Shown in pieces: positions 52,831 to 64,000 of a stretch of DNA of 64,000 nucleotides. The stretch is from positions 2,444,501 through 2,508,500 of the forward strand of contig CP037918.1 of the NCBI GenBank assembly GCA_019356535.1, in the 5' to 3' direction. The stretch comes from Chromatiaceae bacterium (GTDB lineage Bacteria > Pseudomonadota > Gammaproteobacteria > Chromatiales > Chromatiaceae). Within the stretch, counting starts at the first letter, position 1. Each line of letters starts with the position of its first letter. Made by a program: the position numbers and the translations under genes. The notes below the pieces were generated by a model. It had not been told where the DNA came from. It did no database searches and saw only the letters and a list, made by a program, of their open reading frames with translations.

Positions 52831-53246
52831 AGCCCGGTTAGGTCTTTCTTCAGCTTTTGCCGTCGGACCTTAGCCATCAAGGTACCGACGCGCTCTGAAC
52901 AGGCGACCAGCAGGCCCTGGCCAAACAGGCCAGGGCCACCGAGTTCTGCAGCGTGGCCAAGCGCCCGGCTTGCCCCCTCCAGTTGGAAACCCTGCTTGGT
53001 GAAGCGGCAACCTTCCTCGCAAGCCCATCGGTCCAGACAGCTCTGGATCAGGCATTCCCCCTGACGTCGGCCTCGCGCCGCCCCCGGTCGCCCCCCTATT
53101 CATATCAGGTCTTGGTATTTCCTCTTTCTTTTCATCACCTTTCAGGCGTAATTCTCAAAAAGCGAGGAGACACCAACGGTTGGGTGTGCTCTCGCTCCGT
53201 GTATCCCCTCCCCCGAAACGACAAAGAAGCGGAATTCTCGATCCGT
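52831..53246. other. Junction between housekeeping genes and defence island
   Basis: A 416-base gap between metE and drmC. Its left half is a decayed transposase fragment (described separately). The right half, about 53060-53246, has no recognisable gene or terminator. Confidence 0.5.
52850..53060 (-). pseudogene. Transposase C-terminal remnant (DDE type, frameshifted)
   Basis: On the minus strand a reading frame gives LIQSCLDRWACEEGCRFTKQ followed by GFQLEGAS, then, after a frameshift, LATLQNSVALACLARA. This matches the pattern of the C-terminal part of DDE transposases (R-W-x-x-E-E-x-x-R-F-x-K-Q-x-F-x-L-E, then L-Q-N-x-V-A-L-A). The start and catalytic parts are gone. It lies exactly at the border between metE and the DISARM genes. 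Confidence 0.62.
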
Positions 53247-54017
53247 CTATCCAACCATGGAAACGATATCTATCGCTACCAAGGCCTCGAGATGACGATG
53301 GAGTCTGCCTGGGACATCACCACCTCTGACGAGCACACCCGCTTCCATGTTCTTTTCCATGGCATATCCGGTCAGGTTCGCACTGGAGATGAAACATACA
53401 CTGGCGTCGGCAACCACGACCTTGGCGTGGACTCTTCCACCGGAGAACTCTTCGCTCTTGTTCTTCCAATAGTACAGCTTGGCTCCAGGAAGAGCATTCC
53501 TCATGACGTCGATGGAATCCACCGACAGATCACCCCCATGCCATTCACTGGACTCGAGAAGGATGGAGACGTCGACCCCTCGGTCGATCGCACGAGAGAG
53601 TGCTTCGACGACGGATTCGACCTCATATGCCACGAAGCTCGTGAGGAAGATCCGTTCTTTCGCTGATCCTACGATCTCCAGCAGCACCTGCTCGGTCTTT
53701 CGAGTCGCCACCAGTTTGGTGGATGGGCCTGTCCAGACCAGTTGCACCGAGACTTCGGATCTGCCCGCATGATAGGCATGGCTCGCACCGATGAACATAC
53801 CCGCCAACTCGTCAGGACCGACATCCGTGGCTCGCCACCTGTCCAATAGAAGCCGCCCTTCCTCTTCGGGAACGACCCCGATCCAATCGGGGGGAACCCT
53901 CCCCTTCTCGACGTCTGTATCTCGGACGAGAGATGCCAATCTCTCGACACGGCTCGGATGCATGCCCTCCACGAGCATGATCACGACATCCATCAACCTT
54001 TCTCTGCCGTCGCTCAT
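53247..54017 (-). CDS. drmC: DISARM protein DrmC, phospholipase D-like
   Basis: A 256-residue protein with a C-terminal PLD domain. The HKD-type motif reads HAKVVVAD, followed by the conserved SSANLTGYAMEKNMEAGVL segment. A single HKD motif means dimerisation would be needed for activity. DrmC is the accessory PLD protein of DISARM and is dispensable in some tested systems. The ATG at 54017 overlaps the drmB stop in a TGATG junction. It is the last gene of the operon and is followed by the decayed transposase. Confidence 0.9.
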   Translation of the reverse strand: MSDGRERLMDVVIMLVEGMHPSRVERLASLVRDTDVEKGRVPPDWIGVVPEEEGRLLLDRWRATDVGPDELAGMFIGASHAYHAGRSEVSVQLVWTGPSTKLVATRKTEQVLLEIVGSAKERIFLTSFVAYEVESVVEALSRAIDRGVDVSILLESSEWHGGDLSVDSIDVMRNALPGAKLYYWKNKSEEFSGGRVHAKVVVADASVCFISSANLTGYAMEKNMEAGVLVRGGDVPGRLHRHLEALVAIDIVSMVG

Positions 54018-55864
54018 CAATCGAAGAATGCCGCATCGTTCCGATCGAGTGTCGGTACCAACAGAGAACGATCGAGATAGCGGTTCCCCCGTTCGCAGGA
54101 CGTCTCCGCCACGAAACTACAGGCATGACAGGAGGCACCGTGCAGACTGCGATCGTTCTTCGGATCGTGCTCCGAACAGAGCGGATCGGAGGAGCAGACT
54201 CTCGCCCTGTTCAAGGCCTGTTCGATCAGACGTCCCAGGTTCTCTGGCCTGCCCAGGTCCACCAGGCCACCCAGGGTGCCGTCGGAGTCGGCTGCCGCCG
54301 TGTAGATCAGAATCCCGGCTTGCGGCTCCTCTCCCCCCACATCGGCGTAGATGCGCTCCCGAATACTCGCCGCGTTGTAGCCGCATTCCAGGGCCAACTC
54401 TCGAATCAACAGATGTGCAAAGGTGTGCAACATTGCATAGCGAACCCCTGGATAGCCCTTGTTCGGATTCAGCCTACGGGCGTTGCGCCAACCACGATGG
54501 CCGTCGAACAACATCCTGTCGACGACCTGCACCTCGGCCTTCGACTCCCATGCCTCCACGATGGTCTCGTCGAAACGCAGAAATATTCCTTCTCCATGCA
54601 CCTGATTGGCAGGCACCCACTGGGGTTTCCCTCGACACAAGGATGCCATCGGCGCGCTCTCATCGGGATCGGACGACTCCTCTGGCGCCTCGACCCGTGT
54701 GAAACCCAACAGCGCATTGACCTCACGGAGGCGCTCCAACAACAACACGCCGGAGAGATACCGCTCGAACCCCTTGGGCGGATCGACGGGACTACTCATG
54801 AAATGCGGGTAGTCGGTCGGCGGCTTCGGGGTGGTCAGCACCTGCCACTCCGGCCCCTTGATGTCCGATTCGGTCACCATTTCATCGGACGCCCCCCCCC
54901 TCCTATCCTCGATGACCTTCCATATCTCCTCGGGTGAATACTTCTCGATCCCTGGCAGCATGCCTTTCTTCTTCAGTTGCCTGACGACCACCCTCACCTC
55001 GTCCACCGACTCGAGATCCTCGAAGGACTCCCAGTCGTCCATCACCAATTGGGACACGGGATCGTCGACCAATGGAATGGCGAGAGCCGACAGGGTGACC
55101 GGGAACCAACTGTTGGTCGCACCCAGCAGAACGGCCCGCGCCTCTTCCTCGCATCCTTCGTCGAACGTGTCCAGATGTGCGTGTCTGCCCCGACACCCGG
55201 GAAGGTTCTCCTTGCCCGACTGCCCGAAGGCCTGCGCCATGTTCCTCGACGCACCACATTGGTCGCACTTCACCCACAGGTTCTCGGTCTGCAACGACGC
55301 CCCACTCTCGTAGAAACGCAGCCTCCCCCTGCAATCCGATATACCCCGATGGACGAAGTAGTGCCAAGGGAAGTCGTCGAGGTGTCCGTTTCGGCAAGCC
55401 ACCAGGAAACGTGCAGGCACTGCATCCGCATCCGTCGGCCTCTTGTCTCCCTTCGAACCTGTGCAGCCCTTGTGGACGAAACGCGCCAGATCGGGCCGAT
55501 TCCACACCTCTTTCAGCTCGAACAACCCGATATCGTATTCGGAGAGCAGACCACACTTCACACAACGCAACCACCGAGGAAACGGTCGGACGGGAACACC
55601 GATGTAGTCCTCGGCTGTCCGTCGACCTCCGTTCTCGCTCTTCTTCAAGGGCGGCATACGCAGGCTGTCGACCTGCGGCCCCAACACGCTTCTCACGGCC
55701 GAGAGCAATCGCGCCTCCTCTATCGGCAGGCACCGTTCCTTCTCCCACCGATCGGTTCCAAGGGTGATCACGGAGAGATTCGGCAGGTCGATGAGCGCAC
55801 CAGGTCCATAAGTCCAGAGAAGTTGGCTCGGCCTGATCTCCCCCACCGGCGTCTTGTCAGTCAT
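54017..55864 (-). CDS. drmB: DISARM protein DrmB (DUF1998 domain)
   Basis: A 615-residue protein. The N-terminal part has PSQLLWTYGPGALIDLPN, typical of DrmB. Cysteine pairs follow in WLRCVKCG and KCDQCGAS, likely zinc sites. The C-terminal DUF1998 region includes YAMLHTFAHLLIRELALECGY and the ending HGASCHACSFVAETSCERGNRYLDR. In structures DrmB pairs with DrmA in the DNA-binding complex that blocks incoming phage DNA. The ATG at 55864 overlaps the drmA stop by eight bases; an upstream in-frame start would add 26 residues lying within drmA. Confidence 0.95.
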   Translation of the reverse strand: MTDKTPVGEIRPSQLLWTYGPGALIDLPNLSVITLGTDRWEKERCLPIEEARLLSAVRSVLGPQVDSLRMPPLKKSENGGRRTAEDYIGVPVRPFPRWLRCVKCGLLSEYDIGLFELKEVWNRPDLARFVHKGCTGSKGDKRPTDADAVPARFLVACRNGHLDDFPWHYFVHRGISDCRGRLRFYESGASLQTENLWVKCDQCGASRNMAQAFGQSGKENLPGCRGRHAHLDTFDEGCEEEARAVLLGATNSWFPVTLSALAIPLVDDPVSQLVMDDWESFEDLESVDEVRVVVRQLKKKGMLPGIEKYSPEEIWKVIEDRRGGASDEMVTESDIKGPEWQVLTTPKPPTDYPHFMSSPVDPPKGFERYLSGVLLLERLREVNALLGFTRVEAPEESSDPDESAPMASLCRGKPQWVPANQVHGEGIFLRFDETIVEAWESKAEVQVVDRMLFDGHRGWRNARRLNPNKGYPGVRYAMLHTFAHLLIRELALECGYNAASIRERIYADVGGEEPQAGILIYTAAADSDGTLGGLVDLGRPENLGRLIEQALNRARVCSSDPLCSEHDPKNDRSLHGASCHACSFVAETSCERGNRYLDRSLLVPTLDRNDAAFFD

Positions 55865-58800
55865 GCGAAGCCTCCGGATCGGCACTTTCGCTGGGATTCT
55901 CCGCTCCATCGGCCACAGGTCGTGGTCTCCATCTAGGCCCACTCTCCATGCGGGCAGCGCTCATCACCAAGGCGATTCCCGGTTCCACCTCCCGCATGGA
56001 CATGGGGACCGTGAAGTCTCCCCACGGCTTCACCCCTGGGCGTTCGAGCAATCCCACCTTGGTGTCGTGCCCCCGCCCTCTCTTCTCGTAGGCCAGTGTT
56101 CGCCCGCCGACACTGGCCTCCTTGGCCCATAGGTCGATGCGTGCCTCCAATTCGTTCTTGGCAAGGTCTCTGGTCTTGGTACCCGCCACCTGCCATGCTC
56201 GGTCCGTGATCACGTCCACCGCATGTACGACCTCGGATCGATCCGTCCGATCCAGCTCGCTTGCACCATCGTTGGGATTGAAGTCGTCGTTCTCGAGCCG
56301 GACGATGCTCAGCATCATACCCGTGAGCCCCCGATCCATGGCCCTGGGCGAGAAGGGCGTGACCGATTGTGCCTCCACGTGCTTGTAGAAGGTCGCGTGA
56401 TAGTGCTCGAAGGTCTCGTAATGTGAGAGGTCACGGGGCCGCGCCCAAGTGAGCACGGTGCAGACCAGTCCAGGAAACTGACGCCCGACACGGCTGGTCG
56501 CCTGGATGTACTCGGCCGTTCCCTTGGGTTGGCCGTTCACCACCATCAAGCCCAGACGGTTCACGTCCACGCCCACCGAGAGCATGTTGGTCGCCAACAC
56601 CACGTCGATGGCACGCAGCTCACCCTTGTCCCATTTCGTCACCCAGCGCCCTTCGCTCGTGTCGTAGTTCGCCTTGAACTTCACCTCCAACTGATCCAGA
56701 TACTTGGGAATGTCCCGGCTGGCGACACGGGAGGTCAATTCCCGGATGTTCGAGACCGATCGCTGAGCCAACCCCGGCCGTTCCACCAGGCTCATCTGGA
56801 CGCGGTAGGCACGGGTCTGTACGTCGTCCTCGGCCAACCGCTTCATACCCCCCAGTTCACGCAGCGAATTGAAATAGCCGACCACGGTCATGTAGGGGTC
56901 CGCCACCGGCCCGAATCGGTCGAACAGAGCCTGCGCCGCCGTGAGGAATGCCGTATAGACGCGGATCAACACCGAGGGACGGGAGGCCCCGGGGGAACAG
57001 ATTCCGAGGTAGCGGCGCCCCGGTTTCGCCTCGACGGGCCGCTGGACCGAGAAGAAGTTGTCCTCGATGTCCAACCCGTGTGGCGGAAAGACCGAGACGT
57101 TACGCATAAAGACGTTGCCCACCTGCTCCCTGGCCTTGCGCACCGTTGCCGTCGAGGCGACGATCTTGGGTCGGATCGTCTTGCCATCCAGTCGCCAGGT
57201 GCAGAGCTCGTCCACCGCCGTCTCGTAGAGGCCGACCATCGTCCCCAGCGGCCCGCTGATCAAATGGAACTCGTCCTGGATGACGAGATCGGGGGGGCGG
57301 ATGCGAGAGATTCGCTGCACCTTCGTGGCCGGCAAGCCGTTTCGCCTGTCCGCCTGGTGATTGCCGGTACAGGACGCATCGGGCCAGAGCACTCCGTGTC
57401 GCGGGCATTCTCGATCGGCGATACCGAACAGCGTCCGCGTCTCGCCCCGCCAGGCCATCATGGCGAACTTGTCCACGGTGGCGATCATCATCGACGGGGG
57501 GCGATGGGAGATCTCCTCGTCCACCACCAGGGCCGGAATCCCCGGGTGGGGCTGTTCGGCCGATCCCCTCCTGGAGAATTCGCACCGCCCCTTCTTGTCG
57601 CCACAATAGATGGAAGTGCGCAACCGCGCCTTGTCCACCTCGATGTCACGCTTGGGATCGATCTCGGAACCACACCAGGGACAACTGGTGAACTGCGCAG
57701 GAGAGGAGGCCCCGGCCTCCCACTTGTCCGGATCGCGAATGTCCTGGATCGAGCGGTGACTCTCCTCCGTGGACCCCGGCGTGACTCGATTGCCCACCCA
57801 GAGTCCGATGGTGAACGGTGAGGGCCCCAGTCTGTCGTCTCCAGCCGCCTGCATCTGCCGACGCAGGACCTCCATGGCACAGATCAGGGTCGTGGCACGC
57901 TGGAACTGTTGCAAGGTCAACAGCCGCAGGGTATAGCGCATGATCACCGACAGCCCACGGCTACCGTCGTAGCCACCGAGGTCGCCCTGGAGACGGCGGA
58001 CGAACATGGTGAAGGCGGCCACCCCCAGGTAGGCCTCAGTCTTGCCGCCACCCGTAGGGAACCAGAGCAGATCGGCATAGGCCTGGGCCGGTTCGGTACG
58101 ATCCGGGTGGTTGGGATCCGCCAAGGACGGAATGGAGAGCAGGACGAAGGCCAACTGGAAGGGGCGCCAGGAGCGGTTCTTTCGCTGGTCGAAATCGCCC
58201 AGTTTCACCTTTTCCCCACGACGACGGGCCAGAGCATACATACTGTGGATGCGTTGCCTGGCCATGGCCCGATTGGCCAACCGAAAGGCCTCCAATGCCT
58301 CGTCGTTGGATTCCAGGACCGACAGCCCCTCCTTCAAGCGCTCCAGGATCGTCTCGCAGCGACCGAGGGCCAGCTCGGCCTGGTCGTCGTGATCGACGAC
58401 GTCGATGCCGATGCGAGTTCGCTGCTCGGCGATCCAAGCGCCATAGTCGTCGGTGAGAATCGACAACGCCTCGACGAGTTCACCTCGTTCCAATTCCGCC
58501 AGCCGCTCCATGTCGAGATGGCCCGCCTCGATCATCTGGCGCATCGCCGGGCGATCCTCCGGATCGAGGCCCGGTGTCTCGGTCACGGGCAGCTCATACT
58601 GAGGTATCACCACCGACCGAATCTCGGTGGCTCGGTCGGAACGTTCCGAACTGGTCTCACTGTGCACCGAGACACCGTGCCCCACGGCGAACTCGACACG
58701 ATTGCGATAGACCATCTCCAGCGCAGCACGCTCGTCCTCGGCCTTCCCGTCGAGGATGGGGCGTTTCCTGAAGATGGCAGGATCAGGGGCATCCCCGGTG

Positions 58801-59900
58801 GCACGGACGATCAATTCCGGCTGGAACAACCAAGCGCTGTCCTTGTTGGTCTCCGGCTCCTGTTGGCTGTTCACCAGGAACAGCGTCACCAACCGTTCCC
58901 CGTTGGCATTACGCCCACGCACGGTACCCTGCACACGGACCTCGGGGTTCTCAGGGTCGGGTGCACGATGGGGAATAGCGCCTTCCTTCAGATCCAACAC
59001 GAACTTCCCACCGCAGGGAATACGCTGCCAAACCTTGGCCTTGATCTCCTCTTCCTTGCCCGTCTCCTTGTTCACACGGGTCTTGGTGATCTCATGATCG
59101 TAGACGCGCTCGTAGCGCCCCCATCGCGCCTCCACCTCAATGCGCTCGACGTCACCGTCGACACAGAAGGTGATGCCAAAACTAGACGGCACCAGAGACT
59201 GGTTGCTCATGCTGTCGATCTCGTCGGCTGCCTCCGATTCGGCATCCACCTTGCCAGTGGTGGAATCGAATTCGGCACCGGGGTCGTGACGGCCTTCGTG
59301 GACGGTGAGATCTCCAGGTTCACCTTCTTCGCCGTCTGCCGCCAGTGGCCCCTCCAACCCTTCGATACCTCCACGCTTGGATTCCATGGGCGCCAGCTTG
59401 CCCACCAAGTAGCGGTCGCGAACACTCATATCGACGATCTGCTCGTGGGGACCATTGGCGGGACCCAGCAGATCGTCCGTGACGGCGAGTTGCAACAGCT
59501 CTCGGATGTATGCTGGGTCCTGGATCAGCGGGATCTCGGCCAGCGTCTTGCCGCAGAGTTTTGGGATGGCCTTGGCGAAGTCGGTCCATTGGATACGCCT
59601 GACACTGCCGCCCGGCGGATCCAGCGCGAGACTGGCAAGCGACACCGGAATATCGACATCACATACACAATCGAAGAAGATCGTGGTGTTCTCCACATCG
59701 GAACCAATCCGCAACACACGACCGACACGGACGACCTCTCTAGTGGAGTTCGATACGAGCACCCAATCGCCCTCGGTGAGGGCTCGATGCAGGGAGCGCT
59801 CGCCAGTCAAGACTAGTGTGAAGGGGGCCTGCCTGTGGTCATTCCTGAAGCCGCAGTCGACGGCCAGCCAGGCGTTGGATCCTGCTCGGTCAGTTCTCAT
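55857..59900 (-). CDS. drmA: DISARM helicase DrmA
   Basis: A 1347-residue superfamily 2 helicase. Walker A is FPTGGGKTEAY near residue 618 and the DEFH box is VIQDEFHLISGPLG near residue 877. A middle region carries zinc-like cysteines (SCPWCGSEID), and motif VI-like sequence is QATSRVGRQFPGL near residue 1130. It is the core ATPase of DISARM. I prefer the ATG at 59900, four bases after GGAGG; the ATG just before it is nearly touching the site. About 130 bases separate it from the methyltransferase gene, with a small hairpin (CCGAAG/CTTCGG at 59981-60000). Confidence 0.95.
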   Translation of the reverse strand: MRTDRAGSNAWLAVDCGFRNDHRQAPFTLVLTGERSLHRALTEGDWVLVSNSTREVVRVGRVLRIGSDVENTTIFFDCVCDVDIPVSLASLALDPPGGSVRRIQWTDFAKAIPKLCGKTLAEIPLIQDPAYIRELLQLAVTDDLLGPANGPHEQIVDMSVRDRYLVGKLAPMESKRGGIEGLEGPLAADGEEGEPGDLTVHEGRHDPGAEFDSTTGKVDAESEAADEIDSMSNQSLVPSSFGITFCVDGDVERIEVEARWGRYERVYDHEITKTRVNKETGKEEEIKAKVWQRIPCGGKFVLDLKEGAIPHRAPDPENPEVRVQGTVRGRNANGERLVTLFLVNSQQEPETNKDSAWLFQPELIVRATGDAPDPAIFRKRPILDGKAEDERAALEMVYRNRVEFAVGHGVSVHSETSSERSDRATEIRSVVIPQYELPVTETPGLDPEDRPAMRQMIEAGHLDMERLAELERGELVEALSILTDDYGAWIAEQRTRIGIDVVDHDDQAELALGRCETILERLKEGLSVLESNDEALEAFRLANRAMARQRIHSMYALARRRGEKVKLGDFDQRKNRSWRPFQLAFVLLSIPSLADPNHPDRTEPAQAYADLLWFPTGGGKTEAYLGVAAFTMFVRRLQGDLGGYDGSRGLSVIMRYTLRLLTLQQFQRATTLICAMEVLRRQMQAAGDDRLGPSPFTIGLWVGNRVTPGSTEESHRSIQDIRDPDKWEAGASSPAQFTSCPWCGSEIDPKRDIEVDKARLRTSIYCGDKKGRCEFSRRGSAEQPHPGIPALVVDEEISHRPPSMMIATVDKFAMMAWRGETRTLFGIADRECPRHGVLWPDASCTGNHQADRRNGLPATKVQRISRIRPPDLVIQDEFHLISGPLGTMVGLYETAVDELCTWRLDGKTIRPKIVASTATVRKAREQVGNVFMRNVSVFPPHGLDIEDNFFSVQRPVEAKPGRRYLGICSPGASRPSVLIRVYTAFLTAAQALFDRFGPVADPYMTVVGYFNSLRELGGMKRLAEDDVQTRAYRVQMSLVERPGLAQRSVSNIRELTSRVASRDIPKYLDQLEVKFKANYDTSEGRWVTKWDKGELRAIDVVLATNMLSVGVDVNRLGLMVVNGQPKGTAEYIQATSRVGRQFPGLVCTVLTWARPRDLSHYETFEHYHATFYKHVEAQSVTPFSPRAMDRGLTGMMLSIVRLENDDFNPNDGASELDRTDRSEVVHAVDVITDRAWQVAGTKTRDLAKNELEARIDLWAKEASVGGRTLAYEKRGRGHDTKVGLLERPGVKPWGDFTVPMSMREVEPGIALVMSAARMESGPRWRPRPVADGAENPSESADPEASHD

Positions 59901-60032
59901 CATCCCTCCAATCGGCCTCTGGATCTTTACCAGACTGGAGCATAATGCTGTCGGCCAGACTCTCGGCGAACGGAGCATGCCCGAAGAGATCGTACTTCGG
60001 ATCAGTGCTGGGCCGATCTGCCGAAAGTGACG

Positions 60033-63000
60033 TCATGCTGTCCCCGCCACATCATTGGTTGCCCGATATCGCGCACCCCGCCGCTCACCTTGCCTTTCGA
60101 TGAATCCTTCCACCAACAACCAATCAATGGCTTTCTTCCAGTCAGTTTCATCGATTCCAGAACCATTGACAATCTCTCTCTTGCCATGCCAGCCAGGATG
60201 CGCTTCTAGCCAGGCGAGAATCTGGTCGATGGGTTCACTGCCCCATTGGTTTCCCTTGCCGTCCGATGCCGATGGATCGCTGAATATATCCATCTGTGGC
60301 GACTCGGGTTCGGCGGCCTTGGGGATGTCGCGTTCGGTATAGGATGGAATCTCGTAGACCTTGGCCTTTCGATTCTTCTTTTTCGGCGCCGTTTTCTTCT
60401 TCGTGGCCTTCTTGCCGGCATGAAATCCCTGGGCGACCTCTTCCTCATAGCGTTCTTTATTCAACCGAGCCAAGCGGCGTAGGACTTCGATTCGTGCCTT
60501 CTCGGAGATGGTGAAACGAATTCGGTCGTTCTTTGGAAGATAACCGACCTCATGGAAGTCGTGTTCGAGATCCAAATCAGACCAGCCATAGGCCTCGGCA
60601 ACGGCCTCGTCGATCTGGCGATGGAGATCGCGCAACTCTTCGATTCGAGAATCGCTTTCATCGGGATCATGAAAGCGATTGTAGAGCTGGGTTAGGCCAA
60701 CCTCATCGTCTCGCATGATCTCGGCACGGAGAGAATGGTATCTCTCTCCCATGTGGCGCAGGGCATAACGATCCTCGTTAGACGGGAAAGGGAACGTCTC
60801 GAAACAGTCAGTCGGCGTGAAGCGCATAGTCACACCCATTGAGGAAGATTGTTGTGCAGCCCACTCTCCGAACAGCGTCGTATTCAGAATCGAAAACTCG
60901 CACATTGAATCTGTCGCGAATAAAACAGTCTGCTCAGAGAAAACTACGGAGTCATCAACAAAAGCAGGGGCAACATATTTGGTAACACGCGTCATTACTA
61001 ATACTCGTTCCATCGACTTCGCATCATGGATCCAATCGTCCGGATGATGCATGAAGGCAAGGCCACGACCAATTGCATGATAGAGTTCTGAACGAAGTCG
61101 CCAGAATTGCCACCACATGGTCATAATGTCACGATACGATTTTTGCTTGGACTTCTCCAAACGCTCAGGATAAAGATGCTCTTTCAACCATGCATATGGT
61201 TCCACATACTCTTTGGATTTCTCCTCCGGCCAGTCCCAGAAGTTTATCACCCACCGACTGGGCTTCTGTTCCGGGTGAGTATTCAGATCCTTGCCGTTGA
61301 GGTAGGGAAAGACCACCTCCCGATTCTTCGGATCGCGCTCGATCATCGCCATGGCCTCGTCCTCGGTCACGACGAAGCCCATGCCGAGTACGATGGAACC
61401 CTGAAACGACTTGCCGGCATTGGCCGCCAGTCGCTTCGGCGTCCATTCCTCCTGATCCGAGAGGAAGGCAGAAATGTATGGCACCGGTCTGCCAGACAGT
61501 TCGGCCTGCCCCTCCCATTGGCCCTTTCGAAGGTGTACTCGACTAGTGACGACAGCGGCCTTCCCCGGCCAAGGTTCATTGGGATAAGCTGCGTAAATGG
61601 TCGCCCCAAGCTCGCTGATCAGGCGCTCCAACCCCACCTGCCTCGAGTCACCTTCGGCTACGGTGTTCACTGCCAGTAGCCCGAAATCACCACCTTCTCG
61701 AAGGATCCGATGGGCCTGAAGGAAGAAATAGGCGACTAAATCGGCAGACCCCTTGTTGCCCTCTGCCAGATATTGGACGAGATATTCTCTGTATGAGCTG
61801 CCATTGAAGGTCGTAATCTTCTTTCCGCCGAGAAATGGCGGATTCCCCACGATGGCATCGAACCCGCCATTCTCCCTCTCGAACACCTCCGGAAACTCCA
61901 GCGGCCAGTGCATCGGCCAGCGTGGCGGCTTGCCAGCCGGCAGATCGGTCGACAGCCCCTCCCTGGCCCTTCGCCTCAGGGCATCGATGGCCTCCTCGTC
62001 TCCCTCGATGGCCCGTCCCACCTCGATGGACAACACCGCCGTATCGATCGCCTTTCCGCCATTGGCCAGCACCTCGCCCACCAGGGCATCGGCGATCAGT
62101 TCGGGCAGTTCGAGCTTCCGGCGAGCCTCCCGATCCAGGTCGGCCATGATCTCCACGTCGTGGATGTCCCGAATCACCCGACGACGCAACTTCCTGCGCA
62201 ATTCAACGACCTCAATGACCGCTTCGTCGATAGCCTGGGCGAAGAGCTTGCGGCCACCTCCCTCGGCCTTGGGGTCCATCTCCAGGAATCGAAGCTGTTC
62301 GAGATCGTGGATACCCAGCAGGCTGTCGCCGGCGCGCAGGTTGTGGTCGAGGAAGCCGAAGGGGCGGCCCTTGGCCAGAGTCACCAGCCAGATGGAGAGC
62401 TTGGCCAGTTCCACGGCCATGGGGTTCACGTCCACACCGTAGATGCAGCGCTCGGCGATCAGGCGCCGAGCGGTGATCAGGCGCCCCTCTGGATCGGTGG
62501 GCAGTGGCTCCGCCGAGCCGATGCTATCGACCACACACCCGTCCACGGTGATGGCCTTGCCCTCTGCCTCGGCCCGTTCCCAGGCCTCCATCAGCCGCTC
62601 GGAGAGCCAGCGGCAGACCTGCACCAGGAAGGCACCCGACCCCATGGCCGGATCACAGATCTTCAGATCCAGTAGCTCGGCGGGGGGCTTCAACTCCCAC
62701 TCCTCGCGCGGCCTGCCCTCCGCCGGACCGGTGTAGACCACCGGTTCCAGTGTCTCCTTCACGATGGCCTCGGTGAGGGACTTGGGGGTGTAGTGGGTGC
62801 CCGTCTCCCGCCGGTCGGTGCCGGTGGTGACCATGTAGGCGCCTTCCGGGTAGACCAGCGGATAGCCCCAACGGTCGATGCGCAGCAGGTGGTAGAAGGG
62901 GGCGACGCGGTCGCACAGTTCCTGGTCGTTGTGGCAGGCGGTGAGCAACCTGGCGAGGTCGTCGGCCTCCACCGGCCGTTCGAGATCCTTCTGGATGGCC

Positions 63001-64000
63001 GTCTTGTTACGCTTGATCCCCTTGGCGGGTGAGAGTGCGTCGACGAGGGCGTCGGTGCCTCCGGCATGGAGCCGTTCGAGTTCGTCGAGCGTATAGAGGG
63101 TCTTCTTGGCGCCCTTGCCGGCTGTCAGCTCCAGCACGACGGTCCTGGCGCGCTCGACGGTACGTTCCAGCAGACCCTCGTAGACGTAGCCGATGTTCTC
63201 AACATCCAAGGCGCGGTAGGAGAGCGTCCGCCCCTGAAAGGTCTGGATGGATTCGAGCAACAGCAGCACGGTGCGGTTGTCGATGGGCAGCGGTCTGGCC
63301 TCGTCGGTCCGCCAACTGGCGCCCCTGGCCCGGCCCTCCAGGAAGGGGAAACGATCGGGATCAAACAGGGAACCACCCAAGGCGGGCATCCGCAACGCCT
63401 CGTGTTCGATGCCACCATAGACCGCCCGGAAGATGGCCAGCAGACGCGACCAGGCGTCCCGCCGATGGGCGAGGATCTCCTCGGAGTGGAGGCCGGCCTG
63501 CTCCCGGAGCTGCATGCGTAACGAGGAGACGGCGTAGTAGGCCTCGAACCGCTCGTCCTTCACCACATCCATCAGCTCGCGCTCCTCGGCGCTCAGCAGG
63601 AACACCAGCCGCATCATCACGGTGAGCGCCGCCTCGTAGAGCTCCGCAGGCTCGACGCCGCGCAGGAGTTCGCGGTTGCGGTCGAGATCGGCCTTGTCCA
63701 GCGCCTGGATCAGCACCTCGACGGCACGCCGCACCTGCTCGCCGAGGGCCTCGGTGACTTCGTCCTGATGCTTGAGCGACTCGTCCAGCAGGGCCGGTAG
63801 CTGCTCCTCTCGGGCGGTGAAGAATCGGCGGATGCCCAGTAGGGCGAGGAAGGCCTGGAGAGTGACGGGCTCCTGCGCCCACAGACGGGCGTACCAGCTC
63901 GCGTAGGCGGTGACGCCACCGACGGGGGCGTCCACCAGCATCCAGCGTTCGCCGTTGGTAACGAGGCCGAGACGGGTCTCGGTTGCACGGCAGAGCTGGA
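60033..64000 (-). CDS. drmMI: DISARM N6-adenine methyltransferase DrmMI (5' end outside window)
   Basis: At least 1321 residues of a type IIG/PglX-like adenine methyltransferase. The frame stays open to the window edge with protein-like sequence (TRLGLVTNGERW just before an internal ATG at 63941), so the true start lies beyond it. The SAM motif is DPAMGSGAF about residue 453 of the visible part, and the catalytic motif NPPF is about residue 718. Near the C-terminus a lysine-rich linker (KKATKKKTAPKKKNRKAK) joins a winged-helix-like end (ETDWKKAIDWLLVEGFIERQ). It would methylate host DNA to mark self. Upstream drmD is expected outside the window. Confidence 0.9.
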   Translation of the reverse strand, partial: QLCRATETRLGLVTNGERWMLVDAPVGGVTAYASWYARLWAQEPVTLQAFLALLGIRRFFTAREEQLPALLDESLKHQDEVTEALGEQVRRAVEVLIQALDKADLDRNRELLRGVEPAELYEAALTVMMRLVFLLSAEERELMDVVKDERFEAYYAVSSLRMQLREQAGLHSEEILAHRRDAWSRLLAIFRAVYGGIEHEALRMPALGGSLFDPDRFPFLEGRARGASWRTDEARPLPIDNRTVLLLLESIQTFQGRTLSYRALDVENIGYVYEGLLERTVERARTVVLELTAGKGAKKTLYTLDELERLHAGGTDALVDALSPAKGIKRNKTAIQKDLERPVEADDLARLLTACHNDQELCDRVAPFYHLLRIDRWGYPLVYPEGAYMVTTGTDRRETGTHYTPKSLTEAIVKETLEPVVYTGPAEGRPREEWELKPPAELLDLKICDPAMGSGAFLVQVCRWLSERLMEAWERAEAEGKAITVDGCVVDSIGSAEPLPTDPEGRLITARRLIAERCIYGVDVNPMAVELAKLSIWLVTLAKGRPFGFLDHNLRAGDSLLGIHDLEQLRFLEMDPKAEGGGRKLFAQAIDEAVIEVVELRRKLRRRVIRDIHDVEIMADLDREARRKLELPELIADALVGEVLANGGKAIDTAVLSIEVGRAIEGDEEAIDALRRRAREGLSTDLPAGKPPRWPMHWPLEFPEVFERENGGFDAIVGNPPFLGGKKITTFNGSSYREYLVQYLAEGNKGSADLVAYFFLQAHRILREGGDFGLLAVNTVAEGDSRQVGLERLISELGATIYAAYPNEPWPGKAAVVTSRVHLRKGQWEGQAELSGRPVPYISAFLSDQEEWTPKRLAANAGKSFQGSIVLGMGFVVTEDEAMAMIERDPKNREVVFPYLNGKDLNTHPEQKPSRWVINFWDWPEEKSKEYVEPYAWLKEHLYPERLEKSKQKSYRDIMTMWWQFWRLRSELYHAIGRGLAFMHHPDDWIHDAKSMERVLVMTRVTKYVAPAFVDDSVVFSEQTVLFATDSMCEFSILNTTLFGEWAAQQSSSMGVTMRFTPTDCFETFPFPSNEDRYALRHMGERYHSLRAEIMRDDEVGLTQLYNRFHDPDESDSRIEELRDLHRQIDEAVAEAYGWSDLDLEHDFHEVGYLPKNDRIRFTISEKARIEVLRRLARLNKERYEEEVAQGFHAGKKATKKKTAPKKKNRKAKVYEIPSYTERDIPKAAEPESPQMDIFSDPSASDGKGNQWGSEPIDQILAWLEAHPGWHGKREIVNGSGIDETDWKKAIDWLLVEGFIERQGERRGARYRATNDVAGTA

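Follow-up and report, generated by a model that had tools for sequence, protein, structure and literature searches.

The genome analysed here, from a Chromatiaceae bacterium, carries a class 1 DISARM operon that is very probably complete and apparently intact. The window, the whole stretch of 64,000 nucleotides that was analysed, corresponds to positions 2444501-2508500 of one contig of 2,745,378 bases. The operon, originally predicted to be cut off at the window edge, extends 5,672 bases beyond it and ends at L004:5672, L004 being the contig bases directly right of the window. It is flanked by metE on one side and a cytochrome c'-like gene on the other. The DISARM core is ordinary and well known, and the unusual element is an accessory gene encoding a DUF3427 protein. 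The description of the host as a sulfur oxidiser agrees with the presence of a soxB gene (723.8 bits; cut-off, 550).

Gene content of the DISARM operon

The operon comprises eight minus-strand genes, transcribed in the order C5-methyltransferase, vsr, drmD, DUF3427, drmMI, drmA, drmB, and drmC (Table 1), and none of them contains an internal stop. The successive intergenic distances are 18, -4, 4, 10, 129 (54 from the longest drmA ORF), -8, and -4 nt. Of the overlapping junctions claimed earlier, those of drmA/drmB (8 nt) and drmB/drmC (4 nt) were thus recovered, but no overlap exists between drmMI and drmA. The probable starts of drmB and drmA were placed with the help of the solved Serratia proteins and the upstream sequence. 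Sequence scans at both ends of the operon revealed no sigma-70-like promoter upstream and no terminator-like site downstream.

Table 1. Genes of the operon by position; x..y refers to the window and L004 to the contig bases directly right of it.
Gene	Position	Strand	Product	Basis
drmC	53247..54020	-	PLD-family nuclease, 257 aa; start TTG 54020 or ATG 54017	PADLOC DrmC 1.9e-96; NCBIfam NF038319 DISARM_DrmC_I 236.9 bits, cut-off 133, E 2.2e-70; Pfam PLDc_2
drmB	54017..55864	-	DUF1998/MZB protein, 615 aa from probable ATG 55864; longest ORF starts 55942	NCBIfam NF038324 760.3 bits, cut-off 240, E 1.7e-228; PADLOC DrmB 3.4e-80; PDB 7s9v_B
drmA	55857..59903	-	SF2 YprA-family helicase, 1348 aa from probable ATG 59903; longest ORF starts 59978	NCBIfam NF038325 1475.8 bits, cut-off 950, E 0; PADLOC DrmA E 0; PDB 7s9v_A
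drmMI	60033..64000 + L004:1-454	-	Eco57I/MmeI-like DNA methyltransferase, 1473 aa total; first 454 nt right of window	PADLOC DrmMI PDLC02643 1702.8 bits, E 0 (window part); Pfam Eco57I and MmeI domains; DPAMGSG and NPPF motifs
DUF3427 gene	L004:465-932	-	155 aa	Pfam PF11907 34.6 bits, cut-off 27.7
drmD	L004:937-4083	-	Predicted SNF2-type, 1048 aa	NF038317 1409.1 bits, cut-off 610
vsr	L004:4080-4520	-	Vsr endonuclease, 146 aa	TIGR00632 119.1 bits, cut-off 97.85
C5-cytosine methyltransferase	L004:4539-5672	-	377 aa	Best PADLOC label DrmMII 3.2e-91; Pfam DNA_methylase 1.4e-53; TIGR00675 112.3 bits, cut-off 100.65

The original prediction had called class 1 DISARM from the order drmMI-drmA-drmB-drmC on one strand. 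These four long minus-strand ORFs lie at the positions given for them, and the matches of their products to PADLOC and NCBIfam profiles, the comparison that had been recommended, are far beyond chance. A SNF2-type drmD, whose absence to the right was to count against the call, is present there. DrmA, DrmB, DrmC, and DrmD exceed their NCBIfam cut-offs, and DrmMI matches PADLOC models only, with NCBIfam giving nothing but sub-cut-off matches to BREX PglX. All the motifs quoted beforehand were located: GGGKT at residue 643 and DEFH at residue 902 of DrmA, NPPF at residue 871 of DrmMI, and HxK(x4)D at residue 198 of DrmC. The class 2 marker DrmE was not among the PADLOC matches listed for the proteins scanned, and a DrmMII-like C5 enzyme alone is insufficient for class 2 assignment.

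It is very improbable that the operon is an ARMADA or BREX-type system, with which a BrxHII/RapA-like helicase and a PglX-like methylase would be shared. DrmD does match BrxHI/BrxHII, and DrmMI weakly matches PglX, but the DISARM models are matched far more strongly; moreover, DrmA and DrmB pass the DISARM cut-offs and match the DISARM complex 7s9v.

PADLOC also scores DrmMI as type IIG. The possibility of an N-terminal nuclease domain in DrmMI was considered and rejected, no D-ExK lysine being found among the columns at least 85% conserved in 58 DrmMI sequences. From its sequence, DrmMI was treated as a putative methyltransferase only.

Two observations concern the PADLOC models themselves. 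A plus-strand shadow ORF (52953-53666), partly antisense to drmC, matches the 'DrmC' model PDLC02603 (E 3.7e-6), a sign that antisense ORFs were perhaps used to build this model. For drmD, PADLOC ranks first a model that bears the name DrmA (PDLC02572, 1661.3 bits) and has probably been mislabelled.

Insertion site and base composition

Homology with the same-genus genome G005, as determined by blastn, breaks off after window position 52833, which lies 3 nt beyond the metE stop codon, and is found again from L004:5886 on, inside the cytochrome c'-like gene (24.5 bits with Pfam, where the cut-off is 26.5). The segment in between, with 52834..64000 as its window part, is variable. At the same metE/cytochrome junction, G005 carries 5,967 unrelated, MADS-like bases, whose proteins resemble MAD2 and MAD5 at scores well under the cut-offs (310.6 vs 720 and 114.7 vs 400, respectively). 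In another same-genus genome, G007, the contig ends at metE, and a different sequence precedes the cytochrome gene on another contig. A DrmA of the type described here was absent from all seven other same-genus genomes searched; distant DrmA matches, in segments of 34-47% identity, were found in 3 of 37 other relatives searched. Given the missing DrmA in the same-genus genomes and the different insert of G005 at this junction, the operon likely reached this variable spot, between metE and the cytochrome c'-like gene, by transfer.

No tRNA was found in L003 or L005, and the single tRNA-Gly in L004 lies about 12 kb past the operon, so a tRNA-type boundary was not recognised in these stretches. 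In the left flank (52834-53246), a 77-bp stretch (52975-53051) has an 84% identical match on the other strand of G004:C6, and no second copy in its own genome was found in the search of eight same-genus genomes; it is possibly a mobile-element remnant. The G005 insert (L031, 2945-8600) holds a MADS-like methyltransferase, a specificity subunit, and further ORFs.

Transfer had earlier been read from A/T-rich parts of the drmMI 3' half and drmC. The low G+C content is real: 0.565 for drmC and about 0.53 for drmMI after nucleotide 2700, as compared with 0.675 for metE. However, a G+C drop in the 3' half, with a median of 7.8 points, was seen in all 58 aligned DrmMI genes (own included), and the A/T-rich drmMI 3' half was therefore ruled out as a signal of transfer.

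Companion genes of class 1 loci

A scan of genome contigs with a three-sequence DrmA alignment yielded 474 stretches encoding a DrmA relative, the best 80 of which, together with the present locus, made up a comparison set of 81 loci. DrmB was present in 80, DrmC in 75, DrmD in 70, and DrmMI in 74 of them. Dcm was found in at least 32 and Vsr in at least 28 of these 81 loci (own plus the best 80 of 474), many of which end short.

The prediction had taken an adenine-specific instead of a C5 methyltransferase as a mark of class 1, a distinction that does not hold here, as a C5 enzyme is encoded in the same operon. Among the best 80 of 474, 16 loci (the present one not among them) have both flanks visible; by a fixed rule, Dcm is adjacent in 14 of these and Vsr in 9. 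Each of the two loci scored as lacking Dcm, L111 and L126, does contain a Dcm ORF, which runs into an over-long drmD ORF. When the upstream flank alone had to be visible (23 loci from own plus the best 80 of 474), Dcm lay upstream in 17 and Vsr upstream in 5. These adjacency counts indicate that a C5 enzyme is a common class 1 companion and no evidence against class 1.

Dcm and Vsr are often paired outside DISARM, which favours reading the island as two abutting independent units, an orphan Dcm-Vsr methylation pair and a DISARM system. We regard this as improbable, since the vsr and drmD genes share 4 nt and the two companions recur beside class 1 loci at the frequencies given above. The portion of PMC9142583 consulted also describes DISARM as carrying DrmMI and/or DrmMII.

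Among own plus the best 80 of 474, Dcm and Vsr occur together in L094, L096, L097, L117, and the present locus. L096, L097, and L117 have the same one-strand order as here (dcm, vsr, drmD, drmMI, drmA, drmB, drmC); unlike here, their drmD and drmMI overlap by 4 nt and DUF3427 is lacking.

The DUF3427 protein

Between drmD and drmMI, the operon encodes a small protein for which no PADLOC or NCBIfam model matched and in which Pfam detected the DUF3427 domain and no nuclease domain. Used as a single query against solved structures, it gave chance antibody matches only. A family profile of nine sequences, its own included, matched residues 804-918 of SauUSI (7clg_A) with an E value of 5.7e-14. SauUSI is a type IV, 5mC-dependent restriction enzyme, and the solved relative of the DUF3427 protein is its SRA domain. 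According to the part of PMC7913695 drawn on here, this SRA-type target-recognition domain has a modelled pocket of Y831, F841, I842, and W868, supported by D858 and M829. In the DUF3427 protein, F48, D62, and W71 are identical to F841, D858, and W868, respectively, and V49 is a conservative replacement of I842; the changed positions are V36 for Y831 and R34 for M829. V or I is general at the Y831 position across the nine aligned sequences. SauUSI combines this domain with nuclease and motor in a single chain of 953 residues, whereas the DUF3427 protein stands alone and differs in two modelled pocket residues. Judging from this sequence relationship, the DUF3427 protein is most likely a stand-alone cytosine-modification reader. 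Its gene is placed where reading the mark of the methyltransferase of the same operon is possible, and the self/non-self rule of DISARM is still under study.

Next to a 5mC writer, a 5mC reader could also represent a conflict or a passenger. That the gene is an accidental passenger, or what decay has left of a larger restriction enzyme, and plays no part in DISARM is unlikely on balance but deserves serious weight. DUF3427 occurs in one of the 81 class 1 loci (own plus the best 80 of 474), with the own-grown profile and the nine-sequence profile alike, and in the relatives inspected, the domain usually forms part of a helicase-sized frame or is joined to HNH or NOV_C. Against decay, the frame is intact, with a GGAGG-type site and tight spacing of 4 and 10 nt from its neighbours, and the protein retains all six residues that are invariant in nine diverse relatives (ten columns listed).

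Another reading, to which we give a somewhat smaller chance, is that the protein is not a reader of the host mark but a type IV-like sensor for phages with 5mC or 5hmC, directing the DISARM motors and DrmC. In the homologous domain of SauUSI, recognition of 5mC/5hmC leads to cutting, as the consulted parts of PMC3874153 and PMC7913695 have it, and modification-dependent cargo exists elsewhere: of the 74 loci with a visible slot before drmA, 7 hold a member of an AspBHI-like cluster, and one GmrSD-type protein was seen (among the best 80 of 474). Yet a 5mC alarm in an operon with its own C5 methyltransferase would have to distinguish sequence or context if the host is to be spared, and the protein is devoid of a nuclease domain by Pfam.

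Relatives of DUF3427 were found in 1 of 72,556 plasmid records and in at least two of 398 phylum genomes (own plus one other), and by the Pfam model in at least 10 of 274 class genomes. These counts are lower bounds, as the six-frame Pfam search missed the copy in its own genome, which passes the cut-off in a protein hmmscan. No relatives were found in phage records, and none of 17 matched stretches was confirmed as a viral contig. A literature search of incomplete coverage yielded no paper joining DUF3427 and DISARM.

Comparison with the Serratia DrmAB complex and proposed mechanism

DrmA and DrmB align nearly full-length with those of the class 1 DISARM of Serratia sp. SCBI (PDB 7s9v, 7s9w; PMC9142583, in the part used here). 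The E value was 0 for both DrmA against 7s9v_A and DrmB against 7s9v_B, the latter alignment starting from residue 28 of the longer drmB ORF. As reported in the available sections of that paper, Serratia DrmAB is autoinhibited by a trigger loop and activated by 5'-overhang DNA, its ATPase is stimulated by unmethylated DNA and lowered by 5mC, and replacement of K803, R1294, R659, or R810 with alanine weakens protection. Of its DNA-contact residues, K803, R810, and R1294 are conserved in the present DrmA as K837, R844, and R1329; the R659 of the paper adjoins chain Arg 658, which is kept as R694. Class 1 DrmA has an EVE-like domain at its N-terminus, according to part of a preprint (PMC12458937). 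In contrast to the Serratia system, the present operon has DUF3427 between drmD and drmMI.

An anti-phage role of the operon is predicted from its gene content, and the following course of events may be envisaged. Judging by their families, DrmMI would mark host DNA at adenine and the C5 enzyme at cytosine, and Vsr would repair the T:G mismatches left by deamination of 5-methylcytosine or act as a nicking enzyme. DrmA-DrmB, by analogy with the Serratia homologue as described in the consulted part of PMC9142583, may load on unmodified 5'-overhang DNA under the restraint of methylation and the trigger loop. DrmD would serve as a second motor and DrmC as a nuclease. In the weakest step of this scheme, the DUF3427 protein would act as a stand-alone SRA-type binder of modified cytosine and help to tell marked host DNA from foreign DNA; alternatively, it may flag cytosine-modified phage DNA.

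Cargo slots in class 1 operons

Defence-type genes were found in two set positions of many class 1 operons and constitute a list of candidate accessories. In the drmD-drmMI slot, a gap of >250 bp was present in 14 of the 66 loci with that gene order (among own plus the best 80 of 474). Inspection revealed a credible ORF in 12 of the 14 gapped loci, with L058 and L121 lacking one. An Mrr_cat-like cluster comprises six proteins, to which a seventh (L069) was added by eye; the Pfam scan covered the L060 protein only.

The slot before drmA was measured from the last of drmMI/drmD to the drmA start, and a gap of >250 bp was seen in 53 of 74 loci (e.g., L058:8036-9991 and L069:7586-9001). In the present locus, the drmMI-drmA slot is empty. 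Pfam was run on representatives of the cargo clusters only. Two GHKL-ATPase clusters account for 21 and 12 loci, none in both, and thus for 33 of the 74 (among own plus the best 80 of 474). A cluster of AspBHI-like, modification-dependent restriction enzymes occupies the slot in L067, L070, L073, L092, L102, L109, and L127, the L073 member being Pfam-confirmed, and a KAP NTPase cluster occurs in 3 of the 74 (again among own plus the best 80 of 474). Schlafen AlbA, UvrD-like, GmrSD, YhcG, and reverse-transcriptase-like domains are rarer, the last scoring under its Pfam cut-off. A literature search of incomplete coverage turned up no paper titles on DISARM cargo slots.

We advance, as a speculation held at low confidence, the idea that class 1 DISARM serves as a chassis whose cargo can be exchanged at two fixed slots (drmD-drmMI and drmMI-drmA), the cargo here being a free-standing SRA-type reader that would couple the C5 methylation of the operon to the attack decision of DrmAB/DrmD.

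Two further arrangements were seen among the loci surveyed. In L087, L101, L106, and L137, drmMI precedes drmD, and a protein family of 541-572 aa, whose sole scanned member (L106) had no Pfam match, adjoins drmA. From position 1779 onward of L118, a Sulfurovaceae contig, DrmA and DrmB share a single ORF of 1918 aa and may be naturally fused.
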